In this document: positions 2,525-45,273 of the stretch, in pieces
Layout of the letters: each line of letters begins with the position of its first letter
Numbering within the stretch: position 1 is the first letter of the stretch
From: Planctomycetota bacterium
Lineage (GTDB): Bacteria > Planctomycetota > UBA1135 > UBA2386
Assembly: GCA_016872675.1 (NCBI GenBank)
Contig: VGZG01000020.1
Location: forward strand, 1 to 50,071
Reading direction: 5' to 3'
DNA length: 50,071 bases
The notes under the pieces: generated by a model
What the model was told of the DNA's origin: nothing
The model's input: only the letters and a program-made list of their open reading frames with translations
Database searches by the model: none
Made by a program: the position numbers and the translations under genes

Positions 2525-4999
2525 ATGACCATGAATCGCCACGAGCTCCCGCGCAACAAGCCTGCGCGCAACGCCAAGGACGAGATCGCCGACGACCTGC
2601 CGACGTTGGAGCCGGTCGCCGACGACCTGCCGACGCTGACGCCGGCGGACGACGACCTGCCGACGCTCGAGCCGATCGCCGACGCCGCGGCGCCGGAGCC
2701 GAAGGGGCCGGTGCAGGTCGCGTGCCTGCCGGCCGAGGGCGGCTTCGACGTCGTGCTGCAGGTCGACGTCGCCGACATGGACAAGAAGGCGGTCGCCGAC
2801 GCGGTGAAGGCGCCGCTCGCGCGCGCCTGCACGATGGAGTCCGGCAAGTTGCGCCACCGCAAGGCGCTCGTCCGCTTCGGCGGCGAGGCGATCATCGGCA
2901 GCGCGGCGAAGGAACTCGTCGCCGAGACGCTGAAGGCGCACAAGCCGCTGCTCGTGATCGTGCGCCGCGGCATGGGCGACGAGACGGTCGCGCAGGGCAA
3001 GCTGCCGGAGGTCGCGGTGACGACCAGCGAGCAGGCCGGCGTCACCAAGGTCGACGTCGCCACCGGCGAACTCGACGCCGCCGACCTCGCGCTGGCGCTG
3101 CAGCCGCACCACGCCGCCCTGCGCGCCGCGGCTACGGGCAAGCGCGTGCGCCTTGCCTTCACCGGCAAGATCCGTCCGGACGCGGCGCTGCGCGGCGAAC
3201 TCGCCGCCCTGCTACAGGCAGCCGGCGCCCGCGCCGCCGCGATCGGCGAGCGCGTGCTGTTCGACAAGGACCTGACCGACCGCGTGCGCGCGGCGGCGGA
3301 GGGCGCCCGCGCGCGGATCGCCGTGCAGTGCGCCGACGCCGACGAGACGACCCTCGACGCGCTGGAACTCGCGCTGCCCGAACACGCCGCGCTGTGCCAG
3401 GGCAAGGTCGTGCGCTTCGACATGTCGACGCCGGCCGCGGCACCGCGGGCGCGCTGCCTCGACTGGGCGCGTGAGCACGGCGCCGTTCGCGTCGACTTCG
3501 GCGACGAAATCGCATGGCCGCCGCTCGTCGCGCTGGTCGCCGGCGCCGAGGTCGCGCTGCGCCTGCAGGCCAACGGCCGCACGCCGACGCAGACGCTGGC
3601 GGCGCTCGTGGCCGAGGCGTCGGCGCACGCCGCCGCCTGCAAGGGCAATGCGGTACTGCTCGACTGGCCGGCCGGGTTTTCGCTCGACGCCGCCGCTGGC
3701 AAGGCGCTCTGCGAGGTCGTCGGCGTGCTGCAGCCCAAGACGTTGGTGTGCAGCTTCGGCGGCGAGCAGCGCGAGCCGTTCGTGCCCGACCCATGCGCAT
3801 TTGCCCAGGACGGCGAGGCGACGACGGTGACGCTCGACAGCGAGGCCGGCAAGCCGGTCGAGCTGCAGCGCGCGATCGACCGCCGTCTGCCCGGCAAGGC
3901 CAAGGAGCTGCGCGGCAAGGCCGTGCGCGTTCAGGTCGCCGGCGGCGGCGCGCTCTCGCGCACGCTGCTGCGCGGCGTCTGCGCGACGTTCGAGCAGGCC
4001 GGCGTCGGCCGCCTGGAACTCGCCGACAGCAACGGCGTCGACGTGCTCGTGCCGCCGATGCTCACCGTGCACAAGCAACCCGACGGCCTGCGCCTCGCCG
4101 CCCGCACCGACGGTCGGGACGAGGCGCAGCAGAAGAAGGCGATCGCGCGCGAACTCGACGCCGCCGGCGTGCAGCCGGGCGCCGTCGTGGCCATCACCGT
4201 GTCCGCGGCGACCGACGCGCTCGTCGCGGCCGTGCTCGCCAAGGGCGCTGCGCGCGTCGTGCTCGACGGCGACGCGCCGGTGCAGGTGCACCCGCCGCTG
4301 CTGGGCGCGCCCGACAAGACGGGCGCCGCCGTGCGCGTGGTCGTCACCCCCGGCGGCGACGACGCAATGGTCGGTCGTCAGCTCGACCGTGAGCTGCCGA
4401 AGCTCGTCGCCGCGCTGCCGGCGCTGGCCAACGCGACCGCGACGATGGTCTGGTCCGGCGGCGACGCCGCGTCGCCGGGCGTCGCGCGGCTGGTCGCCGC
4501 GTTCGTCGACAAGCAGGCCGCGAAGGTCCTGTTCGATCGCGGCGACGGCAAGCCACAGCAGTTGCACCCGGTCCCGCAGGTCGCGCCGTCGGCGCCGGCC
4601 GCGGCGGAGCTCCCGACGTTGCCGCTCGCCGGTCCGTCCATGCTGCAGTTGCTGGCGCGTCGCGACGACGGCGCGCTGCCGATGGTCGTCGTCGGCGTGC
4701 CCGCCGGCACCGATGCGGCGCACGTCGCCGCCGTCGAGGCCGACGTGCAGCGCCACCTGCCGCGCTTCCACGGCCGCGCCGTGCTGCTGGTTCTGCGCGC
4801 TGGCGGCCAGGACGTGCCGGTGCGCCGCATCGATCCGATGGTCGAGATGCTGCGCCGCACGGTGCCGACGACGGCGGCGGCGACGCTGGTCTTCCGCGGG
4901 TCGGACAACCAGGGCCGACCGCACTTCCAGGCGTTGCACTCGCGCGTCGATACACTGGCGGCTGGCGTGACCTTCGCTGACCCGCGGGCGCGTCGGTGA
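2525..4999 (+). CDS. Unrecognised protein made of about eight tandem alpha/beta repeats
   Basis: I do not recognise this 824-residue protein. The start at 2525 is followed by a second ATG at 2531; either may be used. Residues 24-50 hold three copies of the acidic motif DDLPTLEP/TP, and a related ELPTLP recurs near 695. From about residue 74 to 804 the chain appears to be about eight degenerate repeats of 75-95 residues (roughly 74-168, 171-258, 262-333, 334-420, 430-511, 519-592, 600-683, 708-804). A repeat typically has a strand, a helix ending in LP or similar, a G-K-x-V-R/L-type strand, a second helix ending in AGA/GAA, and a strand resembling RVxFDxG that often ends in V-x-PP. There is no signal peptide and no membrane segment, so it is probably cytoplasmic. 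A putative promoter precedes it and a hairpin follows, so it is probably monocistronic. Function unknown. Confidence 0.75.
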   Translation: MTMNRHELPRNKPARNAKDEIADDLPTLEPVADDLPTLTPADDDLPTLEPIADAAAPEPKGPVQVACLPAEGGFDVVLQVDVADMDKKAVADAVKAPLARACTMESGKLRHRKALVRFGGEAIIGSAAKELVAETLKAHKPLLVIVRRGMGDETVAQGKLPEVAVTTSEQAGVTKVDVATGELDAADLALALQPHHAALRAAATGKRVRLAFTGKIRPDAALRGELAALLQAAGARAAAIGERVLFDKDLTDRVRAAAEGARARIAVQCADADETTLDALELALPEHAALCQGKVVRFDMSTPAAAPRARCLDWAREHGAVRVDFGDEIAWPPLVALVAGAEVALRLQANGRTPTQTLAALVAEASAHAAACKGNAVLLDWPAGFSLDAAAGKALCEVVGVLQPKTLVCSFGGEQREPFVPDPCAFAQDGEATTVTLDSEAGKPVELQRAIDRRLPGKAKELRGKAVRVQVAGGGALSRTLLRGVCATFEQAGVGRLELADSNGVDVLVPPMLTVHKQPDGLRLAARTDGRDEAQQKKAIARELDAAGVQPGAVVAITVSAATDALVAAVLAKGAARVVLDGDAPVQVHPPLLGAPDKTGAAVRVVVTPGGDDAMVGRQLDRELPKLVAALPALANATATMVWSGGDAASPGVARLVAAFVDKQAAKVLFDRGDGKPQQLHPVPQVAPSAPAAAELPTLPLAGPSMLQLLARRDDGALPMVVVGVPAGTDAAHVAAVEADVQRHLPRFHGRAVLLVLRAGGQDVPVRRIDPMVEMLRRTVPTTAAATLVFRGSDNQGRPHFQALHSRVDTLAAGVTFADPRARR

Positions 5000-5091: not shown

Positions 5092-6027
5092 ATGGACACC
5101 AATCGCTTGTTCGTGCCGCGCGACGCTGAGTTGCGACGCCTTGCTGAGCGCATCCATGACGAGCGTCCCGACCTGCGCGCGGCCTTCCCGGTCGCCGACG
5201 GCACGGCCTTCTGGCAGTGGCTTGGCACGCATGGCCGCCTCGAGTACCACGAGGTGGCGCAACGTCTGCTGCCCGTGCCGCCGGAGGGCTTGCGCGCCAC
5301 CGGCTGCGGCGGTGACACGGTTGCGACGCACCTCTACACCGGCGCCGAGGACTGCAAGATGCTGCTCGAACTAGCCGGGCTCTTCGGCGATGGCCCGGTG
5401 GCGTCGATCCGCTCAGTGCTCGACTTCGGCTGCGGCTGTGGCCGCGCGCTGCGCTGGTTCGCGCAAGCCCTGCCCGACGCGGCGTTGCACGGTGTCGACG
5501 TGCGCAAGGCATCGATCGATTGGTGCGCCGCGTGCCTGCCTGGGCATTACGTCTGCACCGGCATTCGCCCGCCGCTGCCGTTCCCCGATGCGTCGTTCGA
5601 CCTTGTCTACGCCCTGTCGGTCTTCAGCCATCTTAACCTGGATCAGCAGCACGCGTGGATGCGCGAACTGGTACGCGTGACCAAGCCGGACGGACTAGTT
5701 TTGGCGTCGACGCACGGCGCGTTCGCGGCGGCGATGTGCGCGCGCAGCAGGGAGCACCAGCAACTGCTGCAGATCGACGCGGCGGACGCGCGCGCGATCG
5801 TGCGCGCGCTGGCGACGGAGCCGTTCGTCCACCGCGTGCTGCCTGCAGCGATCCGCGCCAGCGCCGATGGTGTCGCGGACGACTACGGTCAGGCGTTCTT
5901 CGGCGACGCGTTCGCGCGCGGCGCCTTCGCCGCCTTCGCCGATTACCTCGGCGGCGTGCCGTGCGCGCTCAACTTGTTCCAGGACATGCACGCCTGGCGC
6001 CCGCGCCGCGGGTCAGCGCGGCCATAG
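5092..6027 (+). CDS. SAM-dependent methyltransferase, type 11 class
   Basis: This 311-residue protein carries a class I Rossmann methyltransferase core in its middle third. VLDFGCGCGRALRWF is motif I (glycine-rich SAM loop) and HGVDVRKASIDW the following acidic strand (motif II). The segment PLPFPDASFDLVYALSVFSHL corresponds to the motif III/IV region of Methyltransf_11 proteins. The N-terminal 100 residues are unassigned and may recognise the substrate. The substrate cannot be read from sequence. The gene stands alone on this strand and its 3' end overlaps the convergent DTW gene by 15 bases. Third-position use looks slightly less GC-extreme than in neighbours (for example CTT, ACT and TTT codons), which could indicate later acquisition, but I did not quantify this. 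Confidence 0.85.
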   Translation: MDTNRLFVPRDAELRRLAERIHDERPDLRAAFPVADGTAFWQWLGTHGRLEYHEVAQRLLPVPPEGLRATGCGGDTVATHLYTGAEDCKMLLELAGLFGDGPVASIRSVLDFGCGCGRALRWFAQALPDAALHGVDVRKASIDWCAACLPGHYVCTGIRPPLPFPDASFDLVYALSVFSHLNLDQQHAWMRELVRVTKPDGLVLASTHGAFAAAMCARSREHQQLLQIDAADARAIVRALATEPFVHRVLPAAIRASADGVADDYGQAFFGDAFARGAFAAFADYLGGVPCALNLFQDMHAWRPRRGSARP

Positions 6028-7200
6028 CCCCGCCAGCGCCGCCTGCTTGCCGCGCAGCCAGCGCGCGATCGCGATGGCGTTGCCCAGCCGTGCGTTGGCG
6101 CGGCCGCGCACCGGCACGGCCGCCGGCTGCAGGCCTTGCGCGGCGAGCGCGTCTTCGAGCAGGCCGGCGCTGTGGTTGATGCAGTTGCAGTAGTTGACCT
6201 TGAGCGCCGTGGTCGCCGTGCCGCGCGGCAGCATCGCCTCGCCCCAGTCGAGCGTCGTGCGCGTCCACGCCGCCACCGGCGCGCCGTCGCCGAGCCACGC
6301 CGCGAAGCGCGCCGCGGCCGCTGCGTGCGGCTCGCCGTCGGCGAGGTCGGCGAGCGACAGGCCCATGTGGCCGAGGTGGTGGTCGACCGGGGCGGGTTCG
6401 CCCGGCTGCACGAGGGTTTCGAAGACTTCGCCCGCGTCGCCATCGAGGCGCGCCGCGACCCAGTGCACGATGCGCCGCGTCGCCGCCGGATCGCCGCCCG
6501 GCAGCGCCGACTCGGCGTAGACCACCGCGAGGCGTCGGTCGGCGAGCAGGGGTGAGAGGGCGCGCGACGGCCGCTGGCGCGTCTCCTTGCGCCGGCCGAA
6601 GCGCTCGACCACGGCGGTGTGCGCGATCTGGCGGTCGATCATGCGATCGAACGCGGTGATCAGTTCATCGAGCCGCGTGTGCTCGGGCTCGAGCACGCGC
6701 AGCGCTTCGACGATGGCTTCGAGCGTCGAGACGTAGTCGGCGCGCGGCTCGCGGCGGATGCGGTAGCGGCTTGGCTGGGCCGGCTGCAGGCGGGCGTGCG
6801 GCAGCGCCCGCAGCCAGCCGTTCTCGCGGTACAAGCGCTTGGCGTGCGCCCAGGTGCCGTCGATCGCGACCAGCGTCGACGGCATGCGGTCGCGCGGCAA
6901 CTCATCGAGCAGCGGCGCGTCGGGCGACGGGTACAGCACCGCCGTGTCAGGTGGCAGGTCGAGCTTCTGTTCGAGCGTGCCGGTGAAGCCTGACCACGGC
7001 ACATGCACCTCGGAGTTGGGCATCATCAGTCGCACGAGCCGCGCCGTGCCGAACGGGTGCGTGCGCTCGTGCGGGTGCTGCAGGATGACGATGCGCGTGC
7101 GCGTCGGCACGGACGGTAGGTCGGCGCAGTGACAGAGGCGCTCCGGCCGCAGGCAGCGGTAGCAGCGGCCGCGCCGCAGCTCGGTCTCGGCGGGAGTCAC
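6013..7200 (-). CDS. DTW-domain tRNA aminocarboxypropyltransferase-like protein with exonuclease-like C-terminal domain
   Basis: Residues 10-205 are a DTW domain. The Cys cluster is CYRCLRPERLCHC (C13, C16, C23, C25), followed by a conserved LQHPHE-x-THPFGTARL stretch and the signature DGTW at 113-116. DTW proteins such as TapT install 3-amino-3-carboxypropyl on tRNA uridine using SAM, so the first half is probably a tRNA-modifying enzyme. Residues 221-394 are extra and look like a DEDDh 3'-5' exonuclease fold. They run RRLAVVYAES, then RIVHWVAARLDG, then VFETLVQPGEPAP, HHLGHMGL and AAWLGDGAPVAAW. The catalytic residues are lost: Y-A-E replaces D-x-E, and the C-terminal H-x4-D helix is replaced by RANARLGNAIAIARWL. 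I infer a non-catalytic, perhaps RNA-binding, module. The gene overlaps the convergent methyltransferase by 15 bases. Confidence 0.87.
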   Translation of the reverse strand: MTPAETELRRGRCYRCLRPERLCHCADLPSVPTRTRIVILQHPHERTHPFGTARLVRLMMPNSEVHVPWSGFTGTLEQKLDLPPDTAVLYPSPDAPLLDELPRDRMPSTLVAIDGTWAHAKRLYRENGWLRALPHARLQPAQPSRYRIRREPRADYVSTLEAIVEALRVLEPEHTRLDELITAFDRMIDRQIAHTAVVERFGRRKETRQRPSRALSPLLADRRLAVVYAESALPGGDPAATRRIVHWVAARLDGDAGEVFETLVQPGEPAPVDHHLGHMGLSLADLADGEPHAAAAARFAAWLGDGAPVAAWTRTTLDWGEAMLPRGTATTALKVNYCNCINHSAGLLEDALAAQGLQPAAVPVRGRANARLGNAIAIARWLRGKQAALAGLWPR

Positions 7201-25394: not shown

Positions 25395-28300
25395 ATGCGC
25401 TCGAATCGCCCCATCGTTCTCGGCCTCGCGGCCACCCTGCTCCTCGCCACTGGCGTCTGGCTTGCCCTCGGTTCTGGCGCGCCCACCCCGCTACCGGCGC
25501 CGGCTGCGGCCCTTGGCGAGTCCCCGGCCGCCCCGGCTAGCGCCCCGCCGCCCACCGAGGCGGCGCCGCTGGCCCCGGCCAACGCGCCGGCCCCCGAGCG
25601 CGTCGCCGGCGTGGTCGGCAGCGGCGTCGACGAGCGCAATCCAGGCCTCAAGGGCCGCGTCGTCGACCCCGACGGCCGGCCGCTCGCCGGCGTCGTGGTC
25701 AGCGCCGCGCCGGGCCTTGGCTTCGCCAACGGCAACGGCCGCTTCGACCCGGAGTCCTTCGACGCGCGCGACATGGAGGACATGGTCGACGGCGGCGGCT
25801 TCGATCCTGCCGCGATGCTGCGTTCGGTGCGCGAGCAACTCACCGATCGCGTCGAGGTCAAGACCGACGCCGAAGGTCGCTTCCGCGTCGTCGCCAAGGG
25901 CAGTTCGCGCGGCGTCAGCCTGCGCGCGCTCGGCCGCGGCTTCGCCGTCCTCGATCGCCGCTTCGACCGGCCGAAGGACGTCGACGTCGACGTCGGCGAC
26001 CTGCAACTGCAGGCGGCGGGCATCGTCTCGGGCCGGGTGCTGACCGCCAACGGCGCGCCGGTCATCGGCGCGCGCGTCGACCGCGTGCAGGAGTGGGAAG
26101 GCCGCATCATGATGGGCATGGACTTCGACATTCCCGAACTGGGCGAGGTCGAGGTCCTGCGCGGTGGCGAGGCGGTGATCACCGACGACAGCGGCAACTT
26201 CGAGCTCGCGCACGTAGCGCCCGGCGACCTGACGCTGCGCGCGCGCCACCCCGAGCACCCGACGGCGAAGACGCAGCCGATGACGGTGCAAGCCGGCGGC
26301 GAGTTGCGCGGCGTGCTGGTGACCATGGCGGTCGGCGGCGTCATCGCCGGCGTCGTCGCGGGCTTGCCGGCCGACGCCAAGGGCCTGCAGGTGATGGCGG
26401 CGCGCAAGCCGCAGATGCCGCAGAACGACGCCAACGGCATGGGCGGCATGGCGGGGATGATGGGCGGCATGGGCTTCGACCTCGACGCGATGCTCGACGA
26501 GGCCGGCATCGGCTTCGGCGAGCGCACGGCGACGATCGGGCCCGACGGCCGCTTCGAGCTGCGCGGCCTCGCGCGCGAGACCTACCGCGTGTGGGTCGCG
26601 CGCACCGGCGGCGGCTTCGCCGGCAGCACGGTGTGCAGCGCGCGCGTCGAGGCGCAGCCGGGCGGCAACGTCACGTTGCGCTACGACGCCGGCGTGACGG
26701 TGACGTTCACCGTCGCCGACGCCAAGTCGGGCACGGCCGTCGAGCGCATGACCGTGCGCGACCGCCTGCGCGGCGGCGTCGGCATGGCCGACATCATGGG
26801 CCTGTGGGGCGGCATGGGCGGCATGAACAACCGCCGCGCCAGCGACTACCCGGGCGGCGCCGTCACGGTCGCCAACCTGCGGCCGAAGGCCAACCAGAAG
26901 CTGTCGTTGACCATCGAGGCGCTCGGCTACGCGCCGCTCGAACGCGGCGACATCGAACTGCCCAAGGGCGGCAACCTCGACCTCGGCTCGCTCAAGCTGG
27001 ATCCGGTGCCGGTGCTGACCGTCACCGTCGTCAACGCGATCGACGGCAAGCCGATCCAGGGCGCGTCGGTCGCGTTCGCCAGCCAGCAGGGCGGTGACGA
27101 GATGGCGGCGATACGGCGCGGCATACCGCGACAGTGGCGACGCTTCGTGCCGGGCGGCGCTGCCGGCGGTCTCGCGCAGGGGCGCACCGACCGCGACGGC
27201 CGCATCACGCTCAATCGTCCGGCGCAGCAGTCGACCATCGAGGTCGAGGCGCGCGGCTTCGCGCCGTTCGCCAGCGAGGCGTTGGCCTTCGGCGCCGAAG
27301 GCCCGAGCGAGTACACCGCGAAACTCGTCATCGGCGGCATCGCGCAGGTCGCCGTCGTCGATCCTGCCGACAAGCCGGTGGTCGGCGCGATGGTCGAGCA
27401 CCGCGCGCCGGACGGCGAGACGGCGCAGAAGCGCACCGACGCGCAGGGCCTCGCGCGCTTCGAGCACCTGACGCCCGGCAGCCACCAGTTTCGCCTCGGC
27501 GCGCCGAATGGCGGCATGCGCGGCATGTTCGCGATGCGCATGGGCGGCCAGAACGGCGGCGCGAACGCACAAGGCGCGCCGGCCGAGGAGCCGTGGACGT
27601 GGGCGCCGATCGCCGACCAGCAGACGACCGCGGTCAAACTGACCAAGACGCCGACGGCGACGCTGCGCGGCATCGTGCGCGAGAACGGCGTGGCGTTGGC
27701 CGGCGCGCGCGTGGCCTTCCGCGAGGGCCCGGCGGCCGGCGAAGGCGACGCCATTCAGGACGCGTTCGGCGGCATGGCCGAGGCCTTCGGCGGTGGCGGT
27801 CGCGGCGGCCGTGGCGGCGGCGGGCGCAACCAGCGCACCGACGACATGGGCGTCTACCAGATGGCCGAACTGCCCGAGGGCGAGCACCGGCTGCGCGTCA
27901 CGCACGGCGCGCGCGCGATGCCGACGATGGTGACGATCTTCCTGCGCAACGGCGAGAACGTCGTCGACGTCGACCTCGACATGACGACGGTGCGCGGCGT
28001 GGTGAAGGATTCGACCGGCAAGCCGATCGAAGGCGCGCGCATCCGCGTGCGCCGGCCGCGCGCTGGCGACGATCCGGCGGCGGCCATCGGCGACGCCGTC
28101 GAGGGCATCCTGCCGGGCATGAACATGGGCGGTGGCGCCGGTGGCACGATCCGCACCGACGCGCAGGGCGCGTTCGAGGTCCGTGGCGTCGATCCCGACG
28201 TCGAACTCGAGCTGCAGGCCTCGGCCAAGGACTTCGCGTCTGCGGCGGTGAAGGTCACGCCGGCGCGCGGTGCCACCACCGCCGCGCCCGAGGTCGTGCT

Positions 28301-28628
28301 GGCCGGCGCCGGCAAGGTGCGCGTTTCGGTGACCGGCAACAACGGCTTCGGCGCCGTGCGCGCGCGCTGGCTCGGCGCCGAGCCAGCGCCGGCGCCCGCA
28401 CTCGGCGTGCTGCGTCGCGGCAAGGGCACGATCGAAGGCCTGCGGCCGGGCCCGTGGGAGATCACGCTCGAATCGATGGAGTCGCTCGGTGGTCAGTTCG
28501 GCGGCCAGTTCGGCGGACGCTTCGGCGGCCGCCAGGGCCAGCAGGGCCAGAATCAGGTCCCGGTCGAACCGACGCGCAAGCGCACGGTCGAAGTGGTTGC
28601 CGGGCAGACGGTCGACGTCGAGCTGTAA
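25395..28628 (+). CDS. Large exported protein of carboxypeptidase-regulatory-like repeats
   Basis: The 1,077-residue protein starts with an uncleaved-anchor or signal segment (VLGLAATLLLATGVWLALG) and a Pro/Ala-rich spacer to about residue 70. The remainder is a series of about seven beta-sandwich repeats of the CarboxypepD_reg type, each opening with a strand such as GRVVDPDGRPLAGVVVSA, GRVLTANGAPVIGARV, AQVAVVDPADKPVVGAMV or GVVKDSTGKPIEGARIRVR, and followed by TDAEGRF-like turns (TDAQGLARFEHL, RTDAQGAFEVRG). Loops are rich in Met and Gly (GMGGMAGMMGGMG near residue 350) or Gly and Arg/Gln (residues about 800 and near the C-terminus). There is no enzymatic domain. It is probably a structural or binding protein outside the cytoplasmic membrane. 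It is followed by 144 bases without a gene before the tRNA. Confidence 0.85.
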   Translation: MRSNRPIVLGLAATLLLATGVWLALGSGAPTPLPAPAAALGESPAAPASAPPPTEAAPLAPANAPAPERVAGVVGSGVDERNPGLKGRVVDPDGRPLAGVVVSAAPGLGFANGNGRFDPESFDARDMEDMVDGGGFDPAAMLRSVREQLTDRVEVKTDAEGRFRVVAKGSSRGVSLRALGRGFAVLDRRFDRPKDVDVDVGDLQLQAAGIVSGRVLTANGAPVIGARVDRVQEWEGRIMMGMDFDIPELGEVEVLRGGEAVITDDSGNFELAHVAPGDLTLRARHPEHPTAKTQPMTVQAGGELRGVLVTMAVGGVIAGVVAGLPADAKGLQVMAARKPQMPQNDANGMGGMAGMMGGMGFDLDAMLDEAGIGFGERTATIGPDGRFELRGLARETYRVWVARTGGGFAGSTVCSARVEAQPGGNVTLRYDAGVTVTFTVADAKSGTAVERMTVRDRLRGGVGMADIMGLWGGMGGMNNRRASDYPGGAVTVANLRPKANQKLSLTIEALGYAPLERGDIELPKGGNLDLGSLKLDPVPVLTVTVVNAIDGKPIQGASVAFASQQGGDEMAAIRRGIPRQWRRFVPGGAAGGLAQGRTDRDGRITLNRPAQQSTIEVEARGFAPFASEALAFGAEGPSEYTAKLVIGGIAQVAVVDPADKPVVGAMVEHRAPDGETAQKRTDAQGLARFEHLTPGSHQFRLGAPNGGMRGMFAMRMGGQNGGANAQGAPAEEPWTWAPIADQQTTAVKLTKTPTATLRGIVRENGVALAGARVAFREGPAAGEGDAIQDAFGGMAEAFGGGGRGGRGGGGRNQRTDDMGVYQMAELPEGEHRLRVTHGARAMPTMVTIFLRNGENVVDVDLDMTTVRGVVKDSTGKPIEGARIRVRRPRAGDDPAAAIGDAVEGILPGMNMGGGAGGTIRTDAQGAFEVRGVDPDVELELQASAKDFASAAVKVTPARGATTAAPEVVLAGAGKVRVSVTGNNGFGAVRARWLGAEPAPAPALGVLRRGKGTIEGLRPGPWEITLESMESLGGQFGGQFGGRFGGRQGQQGQNQVPVEPTRKRTVEVVAGQTVDVEL

Positions 28629-36431: not shown

Positions 36432-38420
36432 ATGAGGAGCATTGGCATCGACCCCGGCGACCTGGCAGTCAAGGTCGTCGAACTCGACGGCAGCTACAGG
36501 CGCGCCCGCTTGCTGCGCGTCCACGTCGGCTCCGCCGGCGCTCCGACCGCCGATCAGGTCGCGCGCTGCGCCACGGTCGCCGCCATCGCCAAGGCCGCCA
36601 TCGCCGAGGGCATGAAGGGCGAGATCGCGCTCGGCCACCCGTGCCGCGAAGCGGTCCTGCGCACGCTGGAGCTGCCGTTCCAGGGCCACGACGTGATCCG
36701 CAAGGTCGTCAAGGCCGAGATCGAGGGCGAGATCCAGAGCCAGGCGATCGACGACATGGTCGTCGACTTCCTCGAGCTCGGCGCCAGCGCCAGCGGTGGC
36801 ACGCGCGTGATGGTCGCATCGGTGCCCAAGGCCGGGCTGCGCATGCAGCTCGCCGAACTCGCGTCGGCGGGCGTCGAGCCCGAGGACGTCGACCTCGACA
36901 CCATGGCGCTCTGGCGCGCGGCCCACTTCGCCGGCGCGTTTGCGCCCGCCGAGGGTGAGGCGACGGATGTGCCGCGCATCACCGCCGTCGTCGACGTCGG
37001 CTCGCGTAGCGTCAAGGTGCTGCTCGTCGAGGGTGAGAAACTCGTCGAGATGCGGGCGCTGCGCATCGGCGAGAGCGCCGTCGCCGACGAAGTCGCGCGC
37101 AAGCACCGCCTCGACCCGGTCGCTGCGCGCGCGGCGGTGCATCAGTGCCTGCTCGCTGGCGGCGATGTCACGATCGACGCCGCGCAGGCGGCCGCGCCGG
37201 CCGTCGCTGAGGGTGAAGCGGCGGCGTCGGGCGAGCCGACTCGCACGGTGACCGTCGACCACGGCGAGATCGAGGCCGCGCAAGCCGCGTGGCTGCAGCG
37301 TCTCGCCCGCGAACTCACACGCTACCTGACCGCTTCGGGTCGCGCCGACGGCCTGCGCGCTGTCTACGTCACCGGCGGCGCCGCCGGCCTTCCCGGCACC
37401 AGCGCGATGCTCGCTGCCGTGTTCGGCGTGGCGCCGCAGCCGCTCGACGTGCTCGGCAAGCTGCAGCACGAGCTGTCGCCCGAGCAGGCCGCCGACCTCG
37501 GCCCGCGCATTGCGACCGCCATCGGCCTCGCGCTCGGGCGGCTCGGCGGCCCCGAGGGCTTCCAGCTGCGCCAGGAAGACCTCGTGCTGACGCGCGGCTT
37601 CGAGCGCGCGAAGTTCCCACTGGCGATCGCGAGCATGCTCGGGCTGCTGGCTCTGTTCGTGCAGTGGAACAGCCAGCAGGTCGAGCTCGGCAATCTCGAG
37701 CTGCGCCTGGGCAGCACCTACCAGGATCCGAAGGATCCGAAGAAGGTCAGCTTCTACGGCATGCTGAACTCGGTGTTCCGCTCCGGCTGGTTCGAGAAGC
37801 CGGACCACTTCCGCGTCGAGCAGCAGAAGGGCAAGGACTACACCAGCAAGGACCTGATGGCCGAGCTCGCGGCGATGCCGGTGCAGGACCGCGTGCGCTT
37901 CGTCCGCGACAAGCTCAAGCTCGTCGCCGAGCAGAAGCAGAAGCAGTCCGGCATCTACGAAGACGTGTCGGTCGAGTCGGGCCTTGCCGTGCTGGTGCGC
38001 TGGGCCGAGATCATGAAGGAGCTCGAGCCGACGCTCGGCCGCTTCCTGGTCACCAAGATCGACCTCAGCATGACGGCGCCGAACCGCCGGCTGATGTTCG
38101 TGATCGCCTTCCGCGGCGACGACTTCCGCTCGCGCCACGCCGCGCTCAAGTCGGCGCTCGAAGCCGAGTTGACCAAGGACGACTCGCCGTTCGAGAAGCC
38201 GGACCCGCGCAAGGGCGGCGAGAACGAGAAGGTCGACCAGTTCAAAGACGCCGCCGAGTCGGGCGTCGCCGGCGCGTACTACACGATCACGCTCGAGGTG
38301 AAGGACGCCTTCCAGGCCTTCGGCGCGAGCCGCAGCGCCGCTGCCACGAGCGTAGGCGCGGCGCCGTCGCGCGCGGACGGTTCCACCAACGAGGTCGCCG
38401 CCAAGGAGTCCGGCCGATGA
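36432..38420 (+). CDS. PilM/GspL-like actin-fold protein with transmembrane and periplasmic part
   Basis: This 662-residue protein starts MRSIGIDPGDLAVKVVEL, the phosphate-1 motif of the ASKHA fold as in type IV pilus PilM. Further motifs are AVVDVGSRSVKVLLVE (phosphate 2, about 185-200) and AVYVTGGAAGLPG (adenosine motif, about 310-322). LPFQGHDVIRKVVKAEIEGEI resembles the PilM 1C subdomain. Unlike PilM, which is cytoplasmic, this chain continues through a membrane segment at about 395-411 (FPLAIASMLGLLALFVQ) into about 250 periplasmic residues. This is the topology of GspL or a PilM-PilN fusion. AGGAAAA four bases upstream of the ATG may be a weak ribosome site. It is coupled to the next gene by ATGA. 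Confidence 0.82.
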   Translation: MRSIGIDPGDLAVKVVELDGSYRRARLLRVHVGSAGAPTADQVARCATVAAIAKAAIAEGMKGEIALGHPCREAVLRTLELPFQGHDVIRKVVKAEIEGEIQSQAIDDMVVDFLELGASASGGTRVMVASVPKAGLRMQLAELASAGVEPEDVDLDTMALWRAAHFAGAFAPAEGEATDVPRITAVVDVGSRSVKVLLVEGEKLVEMRALRIGESAVADEVARKHRLDPVAARAAVHQCLLAGGDVTIDAAQAAAPAVAEGEAAASGEPTRTVTVDHGEIEAAQAAWLQRLARELTRYLTASGRADGLRAVYVTGGAAGLPGTSAMLAAVFGVAPQPLDVLGKLQHELSPEQAADLGPRIATAIGLALGRLGGPEGFQLRQEDLVLTRGFERAKFPLAIASMLGLLALFVQWNSQQVELGNLELRLGSTYQDPKDPKKVSFYGMLNSVFRSGWFEKPDHFRVEQQKGKDYTSKDLMAELAAMPVQDRVRFVRDKLKLVAEQKQKQSGIYEDVSVESGLAVLVRWAEIMKELEPTLGRFLVTKIDLSMTAPNRRLMFVIAFRGDDFRSRHAALKSALEAELTKDDSPFEKPDPRKGGENEKVDQFKDAAESGVAGAYYTITLEVKDAFQAFGASRSAAATSVGAAPSRADGSTNEVAAKESGR

Positions 38421-41252: not shown

Positions 41253-41282
41253 GACTCGGGACGAGTCCGTCCTCGTCCTTTT
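41253..41282 (+). terminator. Possible intrinsic terminator after aat
   Basis: A perfect 6-bp stem GACTCG/CGAGTC with loop GGA begins 2 bases after the aat stop, and a TTTTG stretch lies about a dozen bases downstream. The stem is short, so support is moderate. Confidence 0.38.
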
Positions 41283-41294
41283 GCGCCGCTCTGG

Positions 41295-41300
41295 TACTTT
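41295..41300 (+). promoter_or_regulatory. Putative -10 element (TGG-TACTTT) of the Bat operon
   Basis: TACTTT preceded by TGG and followed by CGCCGCC lies 25 bases before the ATG at 41326, the same arrangement and spacing as at 2494-2499. It would drive the whole Bat/MoxR operon. Confidence 0.42.
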
Positions 41301-41325
41301 CGCCGCCTCGGAGACCCCTCCTGAC

Positions 41326-44300
41326 ATGCTGAACGCCCCGCGCCTGCCCCTCCCGGCCGCGATCGCCGCCGTCGCCGCGCTGCTTTCGTCCGTCTCGTCG
41401 ACGACGGCGCAGACCCCCGTGACCGGTCAGCCGGTGATCCTGCAGCGCGCGCGGTTGATCCGCGGGACGACCGTCGTCGGCAAGCCGCTGGCCATGCCGG
41501 CCGTGCCGGCCGAGACGATCGAGTCGAACGGCGCGATGGCGACTACTGCGCCGCAGGATCCTGCGGCGGCTGCCGCCGCGGCGAGCGCCAACCAGCGCGT
41601 GCAGAAGTGGAAGCAGCTGCAGTGGGATCGCCGGCCCTCCAGCATCCTGCAGGCGTGGTCGCTGCCGGAGCTGAAGCCGTACGACCCGGCCGAGGAGAAG
41701 GACAAGCCGCAGCCGGCAGGCGCAGTCGCGCCGACGCCTCCACCCGCGGCGAACGAGCAGGCAGTCGAAGGCGAGCCGTCGGCCGAAGAGCTCGCGGCGC
41801 TGCTGGCGCAGCTCGGCGGGGACGCGCCGCCCGAAGTGCGCGCCGAACTCGAGCAGGCGATCGCCGCTGCGCGCGCGAAGGCGCCGGCCGCCGGCGCTGC
41901 CGAGCTCGCTGCCGCCGCGAACGAGCAGCAGCTCGTCGAGAAGCGGCTGCAGCGCGAGTGCGAGATGGTCCAGCGCGCGGTCACGCTCGGCCGCTGGGAA
42001 GCGGTCGGCGCGTTCCTCGCGACGCTGCCCGAGAAGGAGCGCGCCGGCTGCTACGAGCACTTCCTCAAGGCGCTGCTCACCCCGCCGCCGCGCCAGGAGG
42101 ACCAGCGCGTGCCGCCGAACCTGCAGGAGAAGAACCGCTTCGGCTTCGACGACGCGCTGGCGCTCGCCGGCCTCGCGCCGGGCGGCTTCGACAAGAAGCA
42201 GGTCCCAGCGCTCGCGCCGATCGTGCAGCGCGCGCTCGAAGGCGGCAGCGTGCTCGAGGTGCTGCTGGCGCAGCTCGCCGCCGAGGTCGCCAAACCCGCG
42301 GCCGCGCAGCGGCTCGATCGCCGCGAGGCGGCGTTGCTGCTGTCGGCGATCGGCCAGGAGGTCGAGATGGGGCCGTTCCTGCCGACGCTCGCCGAGGCCG
42401 AGGCGCAGAACGACCGCGAGGCGCTCAACCTGATGGCGCGCCACGCGCTCGCGCGCTTCCAGAAGGAGAAGCGCAACGAGCACCTCGAGACCGCGTGGAC
42501 GGTGACGCAGGCGGCGCTGGCCAAGGGCGACATCGGCGAGGCCGAGAAGGCCGAGGCGCTGCGGCGCGCGGTCGAGCTGGCGCCGAAGGTGCGCGACGAC
42601 CTCGGCCCGGCGTGGCTCGCCGAGAGCTTCACCGCGCGGCCCGAGCGCGGCATGGAGATCGTCGCGACGATCGGCGGCCAGGTCGCCAAGGGCTTCAGCG
42701 AGCGGCCGGGCGACCTCGCCTACCGCGCCAATGGCCTCAAGCTGCAGAAGACCGCCGTCGAGGCGGTGCTCGCCAAGGCGCCGCAGCTCGCCGCGCAGTG
42801 GCAGCCGACGCTCGGCCTGCTGGCGTCGGGCTGGATCGTCGAGGCCTCGTACAGCCAAGCCAACTCGCAGTCCGACATGCTCGGCCCGGTGCTCGAGCGC
42901 GACGAGTTCGGCAACATGTTCTACACGCAGCGGCGGCGCGGCGGCGGTGGCCAGGTGCAGGCCATCGAGCCGGCCGACCTCGTCGAGGCGCAGCCGGGCG
43001 CCGAATGGGCGGCGCTGCTGCCCGAGGCGCTGCAGCCGCACTTCGCCACCGTCTCGGCGCAGCTGTTCCTCAAGGTCAACGAGCCGGAGAAGGCCTTCCC
43101 GTTCATCGCCAAGCTCGGCGCCAGCAATCCGCGCCTGTGCAAGGAGCTCGCCAACGAGTTCCTGCGCGTCTGGACGCGCACGCACAACCCGAACGCCGAC
43201 GGCGGCTCGCGCACCAATCCGTACATGTTCATGTACGGCTTCGACGAGCGCTCCAACGGCATCCCGCTGACGCGCAGCAAGCAGCAGCGCAACCTCGCCG
43301 AGCTCGGCGAATGGGTCGAGCGGTTGCGCGGACTGCCGATCGACGGCGTCGACGAGCAACTGCTGACGCAGGCCTTCGTCGGCGCGCACAGCGTCGCCGA
43401 GGTCTACCGCCTGGAGACCATCCAGAAGGTCTTCGGCGACGTCGGCGCAATGGACCCGGTGCTGCTCGGCTACCTGCTCGGCACGATGCGCCGCAACCTC
43501 GCCACCGTCTGGCGCCTGCCGGCGGTGCAGGAGCAGCAGAAGACCAAGCGCTCGCAGAAGGAGACGCTCGCCGAGGTGCAGAAGGGCTACGCCACGGCGC
43601 TGACGATCGCGCAGCAGGCGCTGCAGGCGCGCGGTCGCCACTGGGCGCTGCTCGCGGTCGTCGCCTCGCTGCTGCACGACGGCAACAACTTCGCCAAGGA
43701 GACGAAGCGCGACAGCGGCTTCGCCGAGGCCCGCCGCAAGGCCTTCGACCTCTTCGCCGAGGGCGCGAAGCACTACGCCGAGGTCGCGGGCGCGCTGCGC
43801 GTCGATCAGGAGACGATCCGGCCCTTCGACACGTGGTTCTACGCCGCGCTCGGCGCGTCCGACCTCGGCGCCGTCGACGAGGAGACGGTGCTGGCCGCTT
43901 CGCAGCTGCCGCTGATCCGCGCGGCGATCGACGCATTGCCCGCCGGCGCGCGCGAACGCCACCTCGGCATGTTCGCCAACCAGCTGTTCACGCGCATGTC
44001 GGCGGTGAAGCCGCAGGTCAAGTTCCGCTACCTCGAGGCCGGCTTCGCGGTGTGCGGCGACCACCCGCAGGCCGTCGAGGCCAAGAAGGTCTGGGACTAC
44101 TACCAGGACCTGCTCGGCGAGCTGAAGCTCGTCGCCAGCGTCGACGGCTCGACGCAGGTCGGCACGCAGCCGTTCGGCCTGCAGGTCGACATCGTGCACT
44201 CGCCCGAGATCGAGCGCGAGAGCGGCGGCTTCCAGAAGTACGCGACGAACCAGAACAATCAGCCGTACGCCTACAACTACGGTCGGCCGCTGGAGAACTA

Positions 44301-45273
44301 CTGCGACAAGTTCCAGGAGGCCGCGAGCGCTGCGCTCGACGAGCACTTCGAGGTGCTGTCGGTGACCTTCAACAGCGAGGGCATGGACAGCGCGCCGACC
44401 GACGACCCGGCGTGGCGCCGCAGCCCGTACGCGTACCTGCTGCTGAAGGCGCGTGGCCCGCAGGTCGACCGCGTGCCGGAGATCAAGCTGGACTTCGACT
44501 TCCTCGACACGTCGGGCTTCACCATCCTGCCGGTCGGCAGCTCGCCCGTCGTGATCGACGCGGCGGCCGCCGCCGAACCGCGGCCGTTCGCGGACCTCGA
44601 GGTCACGCAGCTGCTCGACCAGCGCAAGGCCGACGAGGGCAAGATCACGCTCGAGATCAAAGCCAAGGCCAAGGGCCTCGTGCCGGCGCTCGACGCGATC
44701 CTGCAGCTCGACCTGCCGGGCTTTCGCGTCAAGAAGACCGACGACCAGGGCGCGTCGGTGTCGCGTCTCGCGGAGGACCGCGACGGCGTCGTCAGCGAGC
44801 GCGTGTGGCTGCTGTCGCTGGAGCCGGCCGACGGCGGCGCGCCGCCGTCGACGTTCACCTTCGGCAAGCCGAAGGTCGACGGCTGCAAAGCCGTCTACCA
44901 GCGCTACGACGACGCCGACCTCGCCACCGTCGACCCGCAGGTCGCGCTCGGCCAGGTCGCCGCCGAACCGCTGTGGGCGTACTTCGTGCTCGCCGCGACG
45001 TTCGCCGCCTACTTTGGCTGGTTCTTCCTCATCCGGGCAAAGGCGCCCGGCGGCGCCGCCGGCCCGGCGATCGCGATGCCCGAGACCGTCACGCCGTTCT
45101 CGACGCTCGCCGTGCTGGCGGCCGTCGCCGCGCGCGCGCGGCTCGACGCCGCTGGCCAGCGCGAACTGGCGGACGACCAAGCCCGCATCGAGGCGGCCTG
45201 CTTCGGCCGCGCCGACGATCCCGCGCTCGACCTGCGCGCGCTCGCCGCGAAGTGGATCCACCGCGTCGGCTGA
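41326..45273 (+). CDS. Very large exported membrane protein heading the Bat/MoxR operon
   Basis: The ATG at 41326 gives 1,315 residues with a signal peptide (LPAAIAAVAALLSSVSSTTAQ). An in-frame TTG at 41281 exists but would spoil the signal. Residues about 60-190 are Ala/Pro-rich and acidic. Residues about 200-900 are long and largely helical. Residues about 920-1200 look beta-rich, with DLPGFRVKKTDD and VWLLSLEPADGG. A single transmembrane helix lies at about 1216-1238 (LWAYFVLAATFAAYFGWFFL), followed by a 75-residue cytoplasmic tail (ARARLDAAGQRELADDQARI). The periplasmic bulk with one C-terminal helix recalls BatD, but at more than twice the length and without clear sequence identity. MoxR starts 48 bases later. 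It may be a planctomycete-specific scaffold of this system. Confidence 0.8.
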   Translation: MLNAPRLPLPAAIAAVAALLSSVSSTTAQTPVTGQPVILQRARLIRGTTVVGKPLAMPAVPAETIESNGAMATTAPQDPAAAAAAASANQRVQKWKQLQWDRRPSSILQAWSLPELKPYDPAEEKDKPQPAGAVAPTPPPAANEQAVEGEPSAEELAALLAQLGGDAPPEVRAELEQAIAAARAKAPAAGAAELAAAANEQQLVEKRLQRECEMVQRAVTLGRWEAVGAFLATLPEKERAGCYEHFLKALLTPPPRQEDQRVPPNLQEKNRFGFDDALALAGLAPGGFDKKQVPALAPIVQRALEGGSVLEVLLAQLAAEVAKPAAAQRLDRREAALLLSAIGQEVEMGPFLPTLAEAEAQNDREALNLMARHALARFQKEKRNEHLETAWTVTQAALAKGDIGEAEKAEALRRAVELAPKVRDDLGPAWLAESFTARPERGMEIVATIGGQVAKGFSERPGDLAYRANGLKLQKTAVEAVLAKAPQLAAQWQPTLGLLASGWIVEASYSQANSQSDMLGPVLERDEFGNMFYTQRRRGGGGQVQAIEPADLVEAQPGAEWAALLPEALQPHFATVSAQLFLKVNEPEKAFPFIAKLGASNPRLCKELANEFLRVWTRTHNPNADGGSRTNPYMFMYGFDERSNGIPLTRSKQQRNLAELGEWVERLRGLPIDGVDEQLLTQAFVGAHSVAEVYRLETIQKVFGDVGAMDPVLLGYLLGTMRRNLATVWRLPAVQEQQKTKRSQKETLAEVQKGYATALTIAQQALQARGRHWALLAVVASLLHDGNNFAKETKRDSGFAEARRKAFDLFAEGAKHYAEVAGALRVDQETIRPFDTWFYAALGASDLGAVDEETVLAASQLPLIRAAIDALPAGARERHLGMFANQLFTRMSAVKPQVKFRYLEAGFAVCGDHPQAVEAKKVWDYYQDLLGELKLVASVDGSTQVGTQPFGLQVDIVHSPEIERESGGFQKYATNQNNQPYAYNYGRPLENYCDKFQEAASAALDEHFEVLSVTFNSEGMDSAPTDDPAWRRSPYAYLLLKARGPQVDRVPEIKLDFDFLDTSGFTILPVGSSPVVIDAAAAAEPRPFADLEVTQLLDQRKADEGKITLEIKAKAKGLVPALDAILQLDLPGFRVKKTDDQGASVSRLAEDRDGVVSERVWLLSLEPADGGAPPSTFTFGKPKVDGCKAVYQRYDDADLATVDPQVALGQVAAEPLWAYFVLAATFAAYFGWFFLIRAKAPGGAAGPAIAMPETVTPFSTLAVLAAVAARARLDAAGQRELADDQARIEAACFGRADDPALDLRALAAKWIHRVG

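Follow-up and report, generated by a model that had tools for sequence, protein, structure and literature searches.

The open reading frame at positions 2525 to 4999 (+ strand) of the 50,071-nucleotide stretch of Planctomycetota DNA analyzed here (the window) encodes an 824-residue protein, which belongs to a new repeat family confined to one Planctomycetota lineage. Profile comparisons show that seven of its alpha/beta units share a common origin, as judged from their sequences, with an eighth being marginal. We propose, with a probability of roughly 0.5, that the protein is a cytoplasmic, non-enzymatic, multivalent scaffold in which a chain of eight domains is combined with a motif-bearing disordered tail. 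The open reading frame is a real gene: GC content at the three codon positions (0.80/0.51/0.94) follows the same pattern as that of the neighboring GH95 gene (0.76/0.51/0.95), a pattern unlike that of an overlapping 766-residue antisense reading frame. The gene is single copy, with no paralogs in its own genome, and has the following parts:

2525..4999, + strand: whole gene, 824-residue repeat protein (open reading frame with ATG start; GC3 0.94; orthologs in 25 genomes)
2525..2707, + strand: N-terminal tail, mostly disordered, residues 1-61 (low pLDDT; alignment; net charge about -9)
2594..2617, + strand: tail motif copy 1, DLPTLEPV, residues 24-31 (motif conserved in 19 of 22 orthologs)
2624..2647, + strand: tail motif copy 2, DLPTLTPA, residues 34-41
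2654..2677, + strand: tail motif copy 3, DLPTLEPI, residues 44-51
2720..2995, + strand: repeat unit U1, residues 66-157 (unit HMM, E 1e-20; AF2 secondary structure)
3014..3268, + strand: repeat unit U2, residues 164-248 (unit HMM; AF2 secondary structure)
3281..3523, + strand: repeat unit U3, residues 253-333 (unit HMM; AF2 secondary structure)
3524..3790, + strand: repeat unit U4, residues 334-422 (unit HMM; AF2 secondary structure)
3791..4057, + strand: repeat unit U5, residues 423-511 (unit HMM; AF2 of the whole protein and of the unit alone)
4058..4297, + strand: repeat unit U6, residues 512-591 (unit HMM; AF2 secondary structure)
4307..4573, + strand: repeat unit U7, residues 595-683 (unit HMM; AF2 secondary structure)
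4577..4633, + strand: disordered linker with a non-conserved ELPTLP, residues 685-703 (pLDDT below 50)
4646..4978, + strand: divergent repeat unit U8, residues 708-818 (AF2; HMM match at 714-762, E 0.0067)

When the profile built from 22 orthologs was compared with itself using hhalign, off-diagonal alignments of 587, 407, 374, and 262 columns were obtained; self-alignments at shifts of one, two, three, and four units had raw scores of 218, 158, 136, and 62, respectively, and the maximum score in 40 column-shuffled controls was 29.4. Unit-versus-unit profile comparison links U1 to U7 with scores of up to 78, relative to a null maximum of 18.7 over 420 comparisons, and U8 is marginal with a best score of 21.7. 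Moreover, seven copies of a unit HMM, with the boundaries listed above for U1 to U7, cover residues 66-683 with hardly a gap, and a genome-level search shows the same tiling. U8 was left out of the training set of this HMM and is nonetheless matched over part of its length. At the threshold used, seven or eight units are found in 20 of the 22 orthologs and six units in the other two. The C-terminal end of U8 is well conserved in the ortholog alignment, where the family consensus reads AAATLVFRGPDAQGRPHFQ...DPR.

AlphaFold2 modeling of the full protein on the ortholog alignment (pLDDT 85.4, pTM 0.49) predicts the element order strand-strand-helix-strand-helix-strand-strand eight times over, in units of 80-92 residues except for U8, which has about 110; U5 folded alone adopts the same pattern (pLDDT 78, pTM 0.64). 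At this pTM value the model does not define the relative placement of the units, and a string of flexible beads is just as compatible with it as a rod. Residues 1-61 are mostly unstructured in the model, with a short helix predicted at residues 16-23. Residues that are invariant or at least 90% conserved in the ortholog alignment include the junction prolines P161, P332, P421, P510, P590, and P682, and the remainder are spread over all of the units. An initial annotation of this DNA had described about eight very divergent alpha/beta repeats, and the profile self-comparison, the unit HMM, and the AF2 prediction all bear this out. It had also set six or more superimposable domains as the number to look for in a structural model, and had named one large non-repetitive fold as the contrary outcome; the prediction contains eight copies of one pattern and no such fold. 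The layout that it gave for the unit holds as an alpha/beta repeat, but not in its opening on a single strand, because a two-strand hairpin opens the unit and a second hairpin ends it.

A basic motif, M[TS]..RH.LP.K.P, is conserved at the start of the N-terminal tail and is followed by the acidic motifs. Between one and three tail copies of [DE]LPxLEP, usually with a hydrophobic residue next, are present in 19 of the 22 orthologs, and altered forms are seen in the other three. DLPxLEP has three further DNA matches in the host genome, none of them in a tandem or tail context. The three N-terminal motifs had been read as copies of DDLPTLEP; three motifs are indeed present, but their forms are DLPTLEP, DLPTLTP, and DLPTLEP. 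ELPTLP does precede the last unit of the window protein, as had also been noted, but it is not a conserved feature given that a counterpart (LPTLEP) occurs in only 1 of 21 orthologs. The suggestion that these are short binding motifs therefore retains the support of conservation for the N-terminal copies and loses it for the copy before the last unit. No hydrophobic segment was found in the tail, the 19-residue hydropathy being at most 0.58 in all 22 orthologs, and the absence of such a segment near the N-terminus is the sole reason for placing the protein most likely in the cytoplasm. In P0001, one 19-residue stretch at 554 reaches a hydropathy of 2.11, but a strand and a helix of U6 are predicted there.

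Orthologs, either full-length or partial, are present in 24 of the 34 genomes of the host's family-level group. A single ortholog comes from a different family within the order (29% identity pairwise, 27% in the alignment). This gene lies on contig 64 of G042 (L037:8319-10820, - strand), and its presence there may reflect transfer, old inheritance with losses, or misbinning. No further orthologs were seen in the rest of the order, for which 154 genomes were searched in all, and two additional matches within it, both short and with E of 1e-4 to 1e-3, were treated as noise. The phylum-wide scans scored a few candidates per genome: a sample of 392 genomes yielded no orthologs beyond these, and when 246 genomes were searched at the unit level, the matches outside the known orthologs were all at E 1e-4 to 1e-3 and were also taken as noise. 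Scanning 84,980 species genomes with the conserved patterns derived from the alignment identified 17 loci, all labeled as Planctomycetota or as unassigned MAGs; a pattern derived from the single protein gave no match in the species genomes. Several near-complete genomes within the family-level group (G010, G015, and G017) lack the gene, which hence is accessory rather than essential across the group. Simple counting against four orthologs gives dN/dS values of 0.47-0.67, which indicate moderate constraint and are rough owing to GC bias.

In a tree of 153 units, the units cluster according to position rather than species: U1, U2, U4, and U5 each form one clade with 22 of 22 members, and U3, U6, and U7 nearly do so. 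This pattern implies that the unit order is older than the split between these genomes and that the copies are not being homogenized. One ortholog (L022:9785-12037, + strand) lacks the 80 residues equivalent to residues 543-622 of the window protein. Its reading frame is preserved and the junction falls inside helix 1 of two neighboring units, so that the loss is in register and amounts to about one unit. In another (L036:9126-11402, - strand), a proline/glutamate-rich stretch (PEPEPLPEPEPEPEAEE) takes the place of most of U7. Tandem alpha/beta domains that have one ancestor and yet are distinct by position are good systems in which to study specialization in repeat proteins. In addition, the unit here is unclassified, the lineage boundary is clear, and some natural copies have lost one unit, so that the number and order of units are directly testable.

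Searches against Pfam and NCBIfam gave no match to the 824-residue protein at E<=1, nor at the curated cut-off, and no Pfam family recurs consistently among the 22 orthologs or among the units. Given that a PDB sequence search with the whole profile also found no match, the statement in the initial annotation that no described family has this arrangement stands in these three resources, and no strong match to a known domain over the whole length has come to light. Foldseek searches with the whole protein (PDB and BFVD) gave an acetyl-CoA carboxylase filament as the best of the PDB matches (E 5e-5); with a TM score of 0.10, these were rejected as artefacts of the long repetitive query. For a single unit, Foldseek gave no match at E<=0.001, and the better shapes among the 50 matches listed are STAS proteins, the MinC N-domain, Csx3, ExbD, and crotonases. 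The MinC N-domain and Csx3 have the highest TM score among the matches listed, 0.60, but E is 0.07-0.12, RMSD is 3.7-5.2, and there is no sequence support.

When the unit profile was compared with PDB sequences, the best matches were designed proteins with E-values near chance, among them M7 (2JVF), which we take to be akin to Top7. The element order of Top7 is beta-beta-alpha-beta-alpha-beta-beta, and AF2 predicts this order both for the full protein and for a unit folded alone. Top7-type proteins (Top7 and M7) also have a length of about 92 residues in common with the repeat unit, and M7 is aligned with the unit HMM over nearly its full length, although the E-value of 0.05 is at chance level. 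The absence of Top7 among the 50 Foldseek matches listed for the unit counts against this likeness. Top7 consists of two helices and five strands (PMC8776091), and PMC10442233 names it as the one new fold that had been designed, up to the time of that study, outside those occurring in nature. In direct coupling analysis (DCA) of 152 units, 2-1-3-5-4 comes first among 60 sheet orders in four of the six settings and in 14 of the 40 bootstraps, but it falls to rank 4-7 under heavier down-weighting of similar sequences, and the best total score lies within the shuffled range. Mutual information favors other sheet orders, including the consecutive order 1-2-3-4-5 in two settings. The sheet order obtained by covariation is robust neither to weighting nor to method. 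That the unit is a natural domain with the topology of Top7 (sheet order 2-1-3-5-4), repeated eight times along the chain, we consider very improbable; were this true, it would be relevant to the question of whether that fold occurs in nature.

Two known families resemble the unit in the order of their elements, and each suggests a different function for the array. The units may be degenerate STAS/SpoIIAA-like domains, which would make the protein a single-chain, stressosome-like signaling platform, but this seems unlikely. STAS domains such as those of RsbV and RsbR have the strand-strand-helix-strand-helix-strand order and similar size in common with the unit; RsbV, SpoIIAA, TM1442, and STAS chains of the Listeria stressosome were matched by Foldseek over 82-86 columns (TM 0.45-0.57), STAS proteins are present in the genome, and the preference of mutual information for consecutive sheet order in two settings points the same way. 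STAS domains, however, have a third helix where the unit has its terminal hairpin, the units stand eight in tandem per chain, none of the Foldseek matches reaches E<=0.001, and no ortholog has a STAS Pfam match. The sequence-profile similarity was evaluated using domains from related genomes, gap-stripped columns, and 100 shuffles, with response regulators as a control, which was at chance level (36 of 100 shuffles as high). Against 30 STAS domains (PF01740) the profile score is 10.3, a value reached by 4 of 100 shuffles, and the probability is 0.3%, which is not significant. The periplasmic domain of ExbD/TolR (PF02472) has the same strand-strand-helix-strand-helix-strand order. ExbD chains are among the Foldseek matches (prob 0.66-0.87), and the top-scoring profile alignment keeps the structural elements in register from helix 1 to strand 4, with a score of 12.1 that 2 of 100 shuffles reach. 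This last figure is not significant given that three families were compared, the hhalign probability is 0.8%, and there is no ExbD Pfam match. Moreover, ExbD proteins carry an N-terminal transmembrane helix, whereas the repeat protein has no membrane anchor and arranges its units in a tandem array. Descent from, or imitation of, this domain to give a peptide-binding array is therefore highly doubtful. Because both comparisons are at most weakly above shuffled controls, we file the protein under neither family, nor under any of the other folds named above.

An alternative without appeal to either family is that the protein is a multi-domain enzyme or nucleic-acid-binding protein in which several units together form an active or binding surface, as might be suggested by the invariant charged residues R110, K129, R148, E153, D247, R352, E364, R479, R531, and D714. 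These residues are scattered over all of the units, however, which are on average neutral to acidic, and no enzyme domain was matched significantly in fold, making this alternative improbable. The spread of conserved residues, which are not clustered as in a catalytic site, counts in favor of the non-enzymatic scaffold, as do the conservation of the tail motif, the lack of a hydrophobic segment in the tail, and the differing neighbor genes. In that scaffold, eight diverged beta-beta-alpha-beta-alpha-beta-beta domains of about 90 residues would form one chain, the short proline-containing junctions would fix the angle between neighboring domains, and partners would meet eight surfaces along the chain, no two of them identical; the tail peptides might serve as docking sites for a repeated partner or for a further chain of the same kind. 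The grouping of units by position across species implies that each position has a long-kept identity, as expected for differing surfaces, and the loss of about one unit in L022, together with the absence of most of U7 from L036, is consistent with a modular array. On the other hand, the pTM of 0.49, the moderate dN/dS, and the absence of the gene from several near-complete genomes count against the scaffold. The architecture and the motif conservation are shown, whereas we infer the rod shape, the docking, the non-enzymatic role, the scaffold function, and what the protein binds.

Genes for a GH95 fucosidase and a methyltransferase are the neighbors in the window, and those in other genomes encode a subtilase, band-7 proteins, VWA proteins, and others, so that operon context is not conserved. 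As a result, the gene is not part of a fixed pathway operon, and its context gives no function. In ten relatives, a gene for a protein of 201-229 residues without Pfam match lies convergently downstream (for example, L025:12399-13079, - strand); it is not in the window. Elsewhere in the window, a DTW-domain protein (6013-7200, - strand; PF03942 at residues 11-191) has about 200 C-terminal residues without Pfam match, and a 1077-residue protein (25395-28625, + strand) has four matches to carboxypeptidase-regulatory-like domains. A 1330-residue open reading frame (41281-45270, + strand) has no Pfam match, and a PilM-like type IV pilus/secretion assembly protein (36432-38417, + strand; PF11104) carries a C-terminal extension of about 430 residues without Pfam match.
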